Shown here: piece by piece, positions 13,636-22,285 of the stretch
How positions within the stretch are numbered: the stretch's first letter is position 1
Layout of the letters: the number at the start of each line of letters is the position of its first letter
Assembly (NCBI GenBank): GCA_902611135.1
Contig: CACLYL010000008.1
Coordinates: forward strand, 1 to 39,407
Reading direction: 5' to 3'
DNA from: an uncultured Fidelibacterota bacterium
Lineage (GTDB): Bacteria > Fidelibacterota > Marinisomatia > Marinisomatales > UBA1611
DNA: 39,407 bases
Translations under genes and position numbers: made by a program
Notes under the pieces: model-generated
Seen by the model: only the letters and a program-made list of their open reading frames with translations
The model's database searches: none
Told to the model about the DNA's origin: nothing

Positions 13636-15234
13636 CTAATCTTTTTTCGGTGGAAATTTTCTACCATTTAAAAATTCACCGATAAAAGTATTCCTAACGA
13701 AATAGTGATAACTGAAAAAGCATATAAATGTAACTATAATTGAACTGATTATAAATTTCAAAGTTATACTCAGGTCACTTTTATGAAAAAGTGAGGGAAT
13801 AAATATGGTTAGTGGTAGATGAATGATGTAAATCCAATAGGATGAATCACTTAGGTATTTAAGTTTCTCTGAGTCTTTATTAAAGTATTTGACAAAAAAA
13901 GATATACTAAGTAATACTAACGCTGGAATTCCAAAATTGTAAATAAATATGTATATTCTCTTGAAAATCATATTTTCTTGAAAATATGCATTTTGGATCG
14001 TATTTCCTAAACAATCGTCGCACTCTGACCAGCAAAATACGCCTAGGGTAATCCTTTCGTTTGTCACCCTAAACCTTCGATCACTATAACGATCATAACC
14101 ACAACCTCCATCTCTAATCTCTTTACCGTTTTCCCATCCAGATCCAAACCATTCATTATGTAGGCCATTTCGAAATTTATAATCGTAAACGCCCGGTTTT
14201 AATTTTAATGTAATTGACCATATACCGCCTCCTATATCTTTCATTTTTTGTCCTGAGGGATTACCAAGTTGATGTACGGATAAATAAACAGCCGGAAAGC
14301 CTCCCAAACCAGACATCACCTCATTTTCACCCATATCAACTAAAAAAGTTACTTTCTGTGGTTCCCCCTCATTTGCTTTTTTAGGAAATGCTTTAAATGC
14401 CTCATAAGAGCTTGGCTCTTTAGAAAGTAAGTGAGGTAATAAAAAAGTTATAAACAATATCCAAGTTAGGGTAATGAATAGAAAGTATCTTCCAGGACTG
14501 AGGTCATTCAAAGAATCCTTGCAATGATATACCTGCCATCCAATATAGTAAAAAAAGGAAAAAGATATAAACGACTTTACAGAGGATGGAAATAGAAACC
14601 AAAACCAATACGCCCATTGTGAACCTGAGCCTTGTGGCATATCTTTTACCAAAATGGACATTATTGAACCAAAAATTAAAGAAAAAGTTAGAGTCCCAAC
14701 CCATGGCATTTTTAAAATGTTTTTGACAAGCACCATTGAGATACTTTGAAAGGGATTTTTTCTAAAAATTTTATCAAAGATAAAGACGATAAAAGACATG
14801 GTCATTAAAAAATTTAGAAACCATAAATGATGAGTCAACTCGTAAGGAATGAATGAGCCTATAGTGTTTAGGGAAGTGATAGAGTCAATTAAAGAATTTT
14901 TAATTCCATGATCTTTGCGAATTAATTCAAAGAATTTAAAGCTAAATTCGTTTAAAATATGAATAGGCGGCAAAGTAAGGAGCAGTGGCAACCCTATCCT
15001 TTTAACCCTATTTATGAACATTTCCTTAGAACCTTTTCTGTAGTATAGTAAAGCACCAAAAAAACCAGAAATAAGAAAAAATGCTGGCATCCGAAAATAG
15101 TGTACCAAACCTACAAACAGAGCAATAAAACCACCATATATTGCATAATGAAATGCTGCAATATGAAAATAAACCCCTAAAAGCATCAAGCAGCCTCTTA
15201 AAGCATCCAAAGAGTGAATTCTATTGGTTTTCAT
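13636..15234 (-). CDS. Acyltransferase 3 family protein with inserted glycan-binding-like domain
   Basis: A 532-residue integral membrane acyltransferase (OpgC-like acyltransferase 3 family) that would move acyl groups onto a sugar or polymer. The N-terminal SLDALRGCLMLLGVYFHIAAF carries the family His, and FRMPAFFLISG then RVKRIGLP carry the basic residues. Several transmembrane helices follow. Between two helices, at about residues 290-410, is a soluble insert resembling the beta-sandwich domains of secreted FCB proteins (VTFLVDMGENEV, then VYDYKFRNG and a Cys-rich end CWSECDDC), similar to starch-binding/CBM48-like modules. SSYWIYIIHLPLTIF ends the acyltransferase core. A TTG-initiated extension to 15285 exists, but the ATG at 15234 gives the family N-terminus. 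The domain insert is described in the findings. Confidence 0.85.
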   Translation of the reverse strand: MKTNRIHSLDALRGCLMLLGVYFHIAAFHYAIYGGFIALFVGLVHYFRMPAFFLISGFFGALLYYRKGSKEMFINRVKRIGLPLLLTLPPIHILNEFSFKFFELIRKDHGIKNSLIDSITSLNTIGSFIPYELTHHLWFLNFLMTMSFIVFIFDKIFRKNPFQSISMVLVKNILKMPWVGTLTFSLIFGSIMSILVKDMPQGSGSQWAYWFWFLFPSSVKSFISFSFFYYIGWQVYHCKDSLNDLSPGRYFLFITLTWILFITFLLPHLLSKEPSSYEAFKAFPKKANEGEPQKVTFLVDMGENEVMSGLGGFPAVYLSVHQLGNPSGQKMKDIGGGIWSITLKLKPGVYDYKFRNGLHNEWFGSGWENGKEIRDGGCGYDRYSDRRFRVTNERITLGVFCWSECDDCLGNTIQNAYFQENMIFKRIYIFIYNFGIPALVLLSISFFVKYFNKDSEKLKYLSDSSYWIYIIHLPLTIFIPSLFHKSDLSITLKFIISSIIVTFICFFSYHYFVRNTFIGEFLNGRKFPPKKD

Positions 15235-15437: not shown

Positions 15438-16208
15438 GTGAAAAAATCACAATTAATGCAAATTCTAATTAATAAGTCAACTCTGAATGTAAAAGATTTC
15501 ACTGAAAAAGTTGGAGTAAATCGGTCTAGTTATCATTTGTGGAGGACTAAAAAAACAATTCCAAAAAAAACAACAATTAATAAAATAGCTCAAGTGTTAA
15601 ATATTGAGCTAAAATGGCTAGATGAAGATGATGTAATTATAGTAAGTAATAAAAGAAGCGAAATAAAAACTAAAACTGAAAAAGGGTACGAAAATAATTT
15701 AGAGCTAATTAATTATCAGCGAGATGAAATTGCAAGGTTAAAAGAGGAAAATAAACAGCTCAAACAAAATCCTGTAGAATCTGTTTTATTTAAAGAACAA
15801 ACTTATGATTGGAAAAGTTTTGTTGAAATAAAAATATCATACAAGGGAATTAAAAGAAGAATATATCAAGTTGAAAACATTGATGTTTTAGCAAAAAGTT
15901 TAAATGCAACGACCGGAGATATTATGCCTTATTTTGATCTAAATAATTGGCACTTTATGGAATCGCATCCAATAAATAAACTTATAACGAAACAATCATT
16001 AGAAAGTCTCAAAAATAAAACTAATTTATTTCAAAATATTCTAACTCAATTTAAAAATTTCGGCAAATTCTTTTCAGGTGATCATTTCATTACCCTGTTT
16101 GTTGATTATCAATTTAAAAATACTTTTAGTAAGACAATTAATCATTGTAAAATAATTGATTCTGAAAAATTTAACATTGTAAATAAGGTAACCATCTTAA
16201 ATGACTAG
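15438..16208 (+). CDS. XRE-type helix-turn-helix regulator with coiled coil
   Basis: A 256-residue protein. Residues about 1-60 form a helix-turn-helix of the XRE/Cro type (DFTEKVGVNRSSYHLWRTKK, then NKIAQVLNI). Residues about 85-110 (YQRDEIARLKEENKQLKQN) are a short coiled coil, likely for dimerisation. The C-terminal 130 residues, opening with DWKSFVEIKISYKGIKRR, are not recognised; a later WHFMESHPINKLITKQSLE stretch looks helical and may be a PAS-like or ligand-sensing fold. The start is GTG at 15438, with an ATG at 15456 as the alternative; neither has a clear ribosome binding site. It is divergent from the acyltransferase, which could be its target. Confidence 0.65.
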   Translation: MKKSQLMQILINKSTLNVKDFTEKVGVNRSSYHLWRTKKTIPKKTTINKIAQVLNIELKWLDEDDVIIVSNKRSEIKTKTEKGYENNLELINYQRDEIARLKEENKQLKQNPVESVLFKEQTYDWKSFVEIKISYKGIKRRIYQVENIDVLAKSLNATTGDIMPYFDLNNWHFMESHPINKLITKQSLESLKNKTNLFQNILTQFKNFGKFFSGDHFITLFVDYQFKNTFSKTINHCKIIDSEKFNIVNKVTILND

Positions 16209-20901: not shown

Positions 20902-22131
20902 TTAAATAGTATACACCTTGGTTGGTGTGGTTCTACCTTTCAAAGTAATCTCGCCACTTAGCTTACTTTTATCATGAAGTTCCCTTTTTAGAGCCGTGTA
21001 AATCTCTTGACTAAAAGAGATTTCAGTTTCAAATTTTTTATTTGCTTGTTCAAGTCTAGACGCAACATTAACTGTATCACCAATAGTACTGTATTGAAGC
21101 ATTTCCTTGCTTCCTAAATTACCTGCAATGACACTGCCCGTATGAATTCCGATTCGCATGGTGATGGATTTAATACCATGATTTTTCCAATACCTTGAAG
21201 TTTCTTTTTGATCCCATTCATTGTTCAGTTCCATTAACATTTTCTTCATTTTAACAGCGCAAAGTGTTGCATTGTTTTCATGATTTTTTAATTTTTCTGG
21301 AGCACCAAATACGACCATTATCGAATCACCAATGTAATTCAGAATGTGTCCATCAAATTCTTTAATGGCTACATGCATTTTTGTAAAGTATTCATTTAAA
21401 AATTCTAGAGCAACCTCAGGAGACATCTTTTCAGTAATTGTTGAGTAAGCACTTAAATCAGAAAATAAAATACTGACCCATCGATTTTCTCCATCCAAAT
21501 CTCCGCCTTCTTTGATCATTTTTTCAGATAAAATATCACCAAAATATCTCTTTAAAGTGTTCTGCATCAGTTTTTTTGTTTCTTCAATTGAAATTGCTTT
21601 AGCAAAATCTGACCTTGAGTTATACTCATTTTGATATTTGTTATATGTTAATAGGACTAGAGGGATTGGAATTGAAAAAAACCATATTATGATCGATGCA
21701 TCTTGAATGTTAATTAACATAGGAATAAATGTTGAGAAAAAAAAGAAAACAGTTATCAAAGAAATGGTAAAACTAAATGGAAAAAGTATATAAATAAACA
21801 ACAGGAGAACAGGAATAAAGAGCAAAATATCTTTTTGCGAAAGTCCAGATTGTTCTAAGGCATCTGGATTTAACATCATAAGATAGATTTGAAAAAAGTG
21901 ATAAAAAAGGAATAGAACACATAAAATCAAATCAAACTTTTTCTGTTTAATTGTTTTCGGAAGAAAAAAGTAGGATATGTAAGCAGAGAAGAATAAAGGA
22001 AAAACTAACAGAGTGTAGCTAAATCCTCCAAGGGCAATATAGAAGTTTACCGCATCACCAACTGTCAATAGTAAAAAGAAAATAATAGCAAAATTAATCG
22101 GTTTTCTTATACGATTAAATTTTTCTGCCAT
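20902..22131 (-). CDS. Class III adenylate/guanylate cyclase with membrane domain
   Basis: About 409 residues from ATG at 22131, which has a GGAAG-like ribosome binding site just upstream; a longer frame reaches 22257. The N-terminal half has five to six hydrophobic helices. The catalytic domain starts with ILFSDLSAYS (first metal Asp) and includes YIGDSIMVVFGAP (second metal Asp). RIGIHTGSVIAGNLGS and QYSTIGDTVNVASRLE follow, with the Asn and Arg used for transition-state stabilisation. All catalytic positions look intact, so it should make cAMP or cGMP. The membrane part resembles sensors, but its signal is unknown. Confidence 0.88.
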   Translation of the reverse strand: MAEKFNRIRKPINFAIIFFLLLTVGDAVNFYIALGGFSYTLLVFPLFFSAYISYFFLPKTIKQKKFDLILCVLFLFYHFFQIYLMMLNPDALEQSGLSQKDILLFIPVLLLFIYILFPFSFTISLITVFFFFSTFIPMLINIQDASIIIWFFSIPIPLVLLTYNKYQNEYNSRSDFAKAISIEETKKLMQNTLKRYFGDILSEKMIKEGGDLDGENRWVSILFSDLSAYSTITEKMSPEVALEFLNEYFTKMHVAIKEFDGHILNYIGDSIMVVFGAPEKLKNHENNATLCAVKMKKMLMELNNEWDQKETSRYWKNHGIKSITMRIGIHTGSVIAGNLGSKEMLQYSTIGDTVNVASRLEQANKKFETEISFSQEIYTALKRELHDKSKLSGEITLKGRTTPTKVYTI

Positions 22132-22285
22132 AAATCTTTCTTCCATGATATGGTTTTCAAATTTACACGTATACTTATCTATTCGTGCTATTTCATTAAT
22201 ATATTGCATTATTGGTGTAGAATTACAAAAGGTAGAAAGTAGATAATACCTAAACAACTATCGCTGGATGATATCATATGCTGGC

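Follow-up and report, generated by a model that had tools for sequence, protein, structure and literature searches.

Acyltransferase-3 (AT3, or TmAT) membrane proteins, among them OafB, OatA and HGSNAT, are built on a core of ten transmembrane (TM) helices with an R-X10-H motif (PMC9833829), an RxxR motif in TM3 (PMC9833829; PMC12423673), a DxxR motif and a tyrosine in TM9. In these two papers the conserved residues are given roles in acyl-CoA binding and transfer. Additional domains are also described there and in a review, namely SGNH or alanine racemase domains fused to the C-terminus (PMC9558356), an N-terminal NRF domain and the luminal domain of HGSNAT (PMC12423673). How enzymes consisting of the AT3 domain only can work without a second domain or a partner, and how they present the acceptor sugar, is posed as an open question in the same review (PMC9558356). 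An AT3 protein with a separable sugar-binding module would make the question of acceptor presentation directly testable. In the literature searched (PMC9487903 included), available in part and with most subscription papers outside its scope, no carbohydrate-binding or inserted domain was found in any AT3 protein, and the combination of AT3 with an inserted starch-binding-like domain appears to be new. This agrees with the sequence-only reading of the DNA described here, which knew of no standard architecture of such kind.

The DNA analysed (the window) comprises 39,407 nt of contig CACLYL010000008.1 (assembly GCA_902611135.1) from an uncultured marine Fidelibacterota bacterium (Marinisomatales; UBA1611). 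One of its genes encodes an AT3/TmAT-type acyltransferase, the nearest named family of which is MdoC/OpgC and which probably, by prediction, attaches acyl groups to sugars. Its features are as follows, with the residues of the protein (P0001) numbered without M1:

13636..15234, minus strand: the whole acyltransferase-3 (TmAT) gene, module included, 532 aa, ATG at 15234, stop at 13636-13638
14419..15216, minus strand: first part of the AT3 core (TM helices 1-7), residues 6-271 in the AlphaFold2 model (HGSNAT match, Z 13.9)
15163..15198, minus strand: R-X10-H motif (R12, H23) in TM1, invariant in the 13-row alignment
14998..15009, minus strand: RxxR motif (R75, R78) in TM3, invariant in the same alignment
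13972..14418, minus strand: periplasmic TM7-TM8 loop holding the module, residues 272-420, about 150 residues
14011..14358, minus strand: the insert itself, a beta domain of CBM20/48 type (type A), residues 292-407, ~116 residues
14011..14034, minus strand: CWSECDDC end of the module (C400, C404, C407)
13696..13971, minus strand: second part of the AT3 core (TM helices 8-10), residues 421-512, including the conserved tyrosine Y468 in TM9

The only Pfam family matched was PF01757 (Acyl_transf_3; E 1.5e-23, 83.8 bits against a cut-off of 31), and since the match falls into two stretches, the AT3 domain is interrupted, as had been claimed for an enzyme with a mid-protein insert. In the 13-row alignment, which takes in four insert-less alphaproteobacterial AT3s, D9xxR12, R12-X10-H23, F51-x4-G56, R75xxR78 and G231 are invariant and Y468 is nearly so, in agreement with the TmAT residues given in PMC12423673. 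An AlphaFold2 model based on 13 aligned sequences has ten membrane helices (mean pLDDT 74.8, pTM 0.71), and the whole model aligned with HGSNAT over 286 residues (Z 13.9, rmsd 5.5), which places it in the ten-TM core fold. Foldseek found nothing at E <= 0.001 for the full-length model, and a PDB sequence search with the single acyltransferase protein returned no match up to E 1.

Unlike the extra domains described for known AT3/TmAT proteins, the module interrupts the core itself, in the stretch from TM7 to TM8. The model has a single beta domain at residues 292-400, between TM7 (246-271) and TM8 (421-449), and this segment is absent from the insert-less alphaproteobacterial relatives in the 13-row alignment. 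With the N-terminus taken as cytoplasmic, the TM7-TM8 loop is periplasmic. Lysines and arginines at the cytoplasmic ends number 2, 3, 3, 2, 4 and 5, versus 0, 3, 1 and 2 in the other periplasmic loops, two of which are long (39 and 28 residues). The insert also holds four of the seven cysteines of the protein, and the three cysteine columns of the CWSECDDC end are all Cys in 8/8 homologues, which makes disulfides probable there, judging by sequence conservation. Helix count, positive-inside counts and the conserved cysteines thus support a periplasmic location in the model. The sequence-only reading had put a soluble, periplasm-facing block between two TM helices at 13990-14380, close to the domain and loop delineated here, and the motifs it quoted are present (GVYDYKFRNG at 14193-14164, CWSECDDC at 14034-14011; VTFLVDM runs from 14352 down). 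Structure prediction gives a beta domain instead of an ordinary helical loop.

At the level of the fold the insert resembles alpha-glucan-binding modules (CBM20/48/41/26), which bears out the starch-binding-like character ascribed to it earlier. Within the whole model it matched CBM20, CBM41, CBM26 and AMPK glycogen-binding domains with Z up to 9.2. Folded alone (mean pLDDT 71.8), it had its best match, at Z 9.6 (93 aligned residues, rmsd 2.9), to a CBM20. Of the 50 matches listed, all but one are CBM20 or CBM26 modules, glycogen-binding domains of AMPK, or starch-binding ends from amylases, glucoamylases or CGTases; the exception, 4rkk, is titled only as a phosphatase. Foldseek returned three matches for the insert alone at E <= 0.001, the CBM20 of STBD1 and two AMPK domains (E 6e-4 to STBD1 and to an AMPK domain). 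The fold shared with CBM20/CBM48/AMPK modules extends over about 90 residues and includes the GxYxYKF-W hairpin, whereas identity is 11-20% among the matches listed, the Cys-rich end is extra and Pfam gave nothing above cut-off for the window's module, the sole match being X25_BaPul_like (E 0.039).

Related modules on other proteins of the phylum do exceed the Pfam cut-offs for CBM_20, AMPK1_CBM and CBM_48. An insert profile found the module on GH16 proteins of the same genome, at the N-terminus of one (E 5e-22) and the C-terminus of another (E 4e-8), so that in these proteins it is terminal and not inside a membrane enzyme. Chance resemblance is ruled out by the profile E-values together with the fold. 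Another phylum protein with such modules as internal inserts, the second known from these sequences, is a DUF1800 protein of 716 aa (L070:748-2895), in which two CBM-like modules lie inside the domain, DUF1800 positions 1-143 coming before them and 154-360 after.

In the window's type of module the sequence reveals a CBM20/48 sugar site only in part. K352 and W361 have counterparts in an alignment with the AMPK glycogen-binding domain, and we take these AMPK residues to contact glucan; the counterpart of W361 is a tryptophan, and W361 is kept in 8/8 homologues. The tryptophan of the AMPK FNNW motif, which presumably contacts sugar as well, is without a counterpart in type A inserts; in type B an FNGW-like motif is present in most rows (both types are defined below). 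Model confidence is low at residues 359-383, a possible place for a ligand loop. As the closest relatives of the window's insert are on GH16 enzymes, starch may not be the ligand.

Among 245 Marinimicrobia genomes, 8 have the full architecture, at 11 loci altogether, and all 8 belong to the window's family (33 genomes), a narrow occurrence for an insert that might have proved common and annotated. Ten of the loci are intact. The other (L035, genome G020) is broken by stops, its acyltransferase being interrupted after the module (L035:147-1535 on G020:C20) with the remainder in a separate match; values from its C-terminal part were left out. A search with just the window protein recovered 10 further full-architecture loci (E 3.3e-94 to 6.6e-142), the broken one among them. 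A2 contains eight of the 11 loci, and the E-values for those eight are self-matches, not counted as evidence against chance. A scan of the genomes of 84,980 species with two peptide patterns, which reaches only relatives holding those peptides, confirmed 13 relatives: nine insert-bearing loci and the four insert-less alphaproteobacterial AT3s. Seven of the nine are titled Marinimicrobia and the other two (TMED217, TMED46) are genes of G030 and G004 of the window's family. No viral contigs were found. Eleven of the 33 family genomes have AT3 genes over cut-off; eight of the eleven have copies with the insert, and in three only an insert-less copy was seen, one of these copies being cut short. 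At the end of a contig, the window's genome also retains the C-terminal part of a third acyltransferase copy, a remnant that contains a stop (G000:C23:19052-19375, the end of L087), and ~5 kb from it on the same contig there is a degraded MotA-like mini-gene.

Two types of insert can be delineated. Type A comprises the window, its paralogue L002, L034 and L035, and type B comprises L036-L042; the insert tree separates them with support 100/100. Across types the inserts are 23-31% identical and the N-terminal cores 39-52%, which suggests module replacement in one loop, and on these sequences a replacement in the same TM7-TM8 loop is likely. In a tree of 53 of the 88 domain hits (same-gene second locus ids, hits below 85 aa, the contig-edge L017 and L057, and L071 being left out), type A joins the N-terminal modules of GH16 proteins (96/91), to which its members are 32-48% identical, and type B groups with modules found on other proteins (95/80). 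This topology favours two separate captures of the insert. A single origin of all inserts is possible, their single clade being not rejected (AU p 0.164). Core trees mix the types, the mixed group having support 97/96 with outgroups (10 of the 13 insert-less phylum AT3s, without the partial L085 and L086 and without L077, plus the four alphaproteobacterial ones) and 92/92 without them (10 of the 11 loci, L040 being omitted as a near-copy of L039). A type A clade is not rejected by the whole core (AU p 0.11) or its N-terminal part (0.102), and the insert data reject the mixed group of the core (p 1.1e-7). For the L036/L042 pair dN/dS (NG86) is 0.094 in the insert and 0.217 in the core; of the other pairs, L039/L040 is too similar to weigh and two are saturated or nearly so at silent core sites. 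The insert of L036/L042 is thus under purifying selection.

We propose, with roughly even confidence, that this is an AT3/TmAT acyltransferase whose periplasmic CBM20/48-type module holds a glucan-like polymer beside the acyl-CoA pore and thereby selects the glycan to be acylated. From knowledge of the family, acyl-CoA would donate the acyl group at the cytoplasmic face, and the hydroxyl of a sugar would receive it at the periplasmic one. The module in the TM7-TM8 loop could give the enzyme a hold on its target sugar: it would bind the polymer, hold it beside the exit of the pore and so set which glycan is acylated. We infer that the acceptor is probably a glucose polymer, perhaps a beta-linked one, given that GH16 enzymes carry the nearest modules. 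A parallel among the ten best Foldseek matches of the insert alone is offered by the feruloyl esterases 6rzn and 8bf3 (wtsFae1B), in which, according to the entry titles, a CBM48-type module likewise accompanies an enzyme of acylated glycans. We take these enzymes to remove acyl groups, to have the module at the N-terminus and not to be membrane proteins. A further idea, which we hold only tentatively, is that the TM7-TM8 loop is a slot for the exchange of glycan-binding modules, one type of them related to modules on GH16 enzymes of the same bacteria, that swapping would retarget the acyltransferase in evolution, and that acylated glucans would arise in the periplasm of SAR406 bacteria. In the literature searched, as far as it was available, no description of such glucans in the SAR406 periplasm was found. 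The finding points to an acylation of glucans outside the cytoplasm in uncultured SAR406 bacteria, which may bear on their handling of algal glucan.

The module could also keep its fold without a ligand and act in protein docking or as a structural element, recruiting a partner or stabilising the membrane domain; such a partner might be a transferase in the periplasm by which the reaction is completed, the part played by SGNH domains in other AT3 proteins. The missing AMPK-type tryptophan in type A speaks for this, as do the MotA-like mini-protein adjoining 6 of the 11 loci and the partner need of AT3-only proteins, posed as a question in PMC9558356. The module sequences themselves point both ways: five of 11 match the NCBIfam T9SS plug protein (best E 2.7e-6), whereas seven of 11 match AMPK1_CBM (best E 8.1e-5). 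We know of no glycan-binding role of the plug protein. With W361 strictly kept and the nearest relatives being modules on GH16 proteins, we regard docking as a serious but rather unlikely explanation. That the insert is a non-selected passenger, or an artefact of assembly or gene calling, would fit the stops in L035 and the remnant at a contig end in the window's genome, but is contradicted by ten intact loci in several assemblies, the purifying selection in L036/L042, the cysteines kept in 8/8 homologues and conservation across genera; we give it hardly any credence.

A plain MdoC/OpgC-type succinyltransferase of osmoregulated periplasmic glucans (OPGs) with a decorated loop is suggested by the NCBIfam searches, in which MdoC (PRK03854) was the top match of the window protein (E 6e-37) and the best one for 8/8 homologues scanned. 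The score is, however, far below cut-off (127.7 bits against 338), and unlike MdoC/OpgC the window protein has the loop of about 150 residues. In addition, PF04349 (MdoG/OpgG) was found in none of the 33 family genomes, only seven of which reach 90% completeness or more with contamination of 5% or less (the window's genome is 57.9% complete), and the positive control was found in E. coli. The known acceptor pathway thus seems absent, classical osmoregulated glucans are unlikely as the acceptor, and OPG succinylation is disfavoured; we consider it improbable.

Across the 11 loci there is no conserved polysaccharide gene cluster around the acyltransferase. Its neighbours in the window are:

15438..16208, plus strand: Cro/C1-type HTH gene (HTH_3, E 6.3e-5), divergent to the acyltransferase, with a same-side homologue in L034
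16227..18272, minus strand: SASA-type carbohydrate O-acetylesterase gene (PF03629, E 2.2e-16)

The esterase gene is possibly a functional neighbour of the acyltransferase, a weak suggestion, and its position may also be a coincidence. Two SASA genes were found in the window's genome (the other is L003:5-1366; 38% identical), one next but one to the acyltransferase and the other adjoining a GH16 gene with the same module type. In the eight genomes with the architecture, a SASA gene shares the contig of an insert-bearing acyltransferase only in the window and in G004 (about 8 kb away), and the esterase was therefore rejected as a conserved partner. Nor is the architecture associated with the presence of GH16 genes, which occur in 6/8 genomes with it and in 16/25 family genomes without it.

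At 6 of the 11 loci one or two MotA-like membrane proteins of ~140 aa are encoded beside the acyltransferase and on the same strand, with weak MotA_ExbB matches (best E 0.00096):

L039:7703-8578, same strand as the acyltransferase: MotA-like mini-proteins
L040:7703-8575, same strand: MotA-like mini-proteins
L038:5037-5921, same strand: MotA-like mini-proteins
L041:4993-5862, same strand: MotA-like mini-proteins
L034:5493-5876, same strand: MotA-like mini-protein region
L035:1818-2264, same strand: MotA-like mini-protein region

They often stand two in tandem, 6 bases apart, and at the five loci measured the gaps are 6 to 282 bases. A profile of the mini-proteins gave 40 matches in the family; 15 are short, 10 of these being at acyltransferase loci, and the remaining 25 lie in frames of 260-271 aa. 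The mini-proteins look like MotA without its long cytoplasmic loop. At four of the 11 loci, homologous proteins are encoded within about 6 kb of the acyltransferase (window 20905-22257, L034:1669-2925, L036:11288-12574 and L041:9745-11007), and the two that were scanned, those of the window and L034, both have an adenylate/guanylate cyclase domain.
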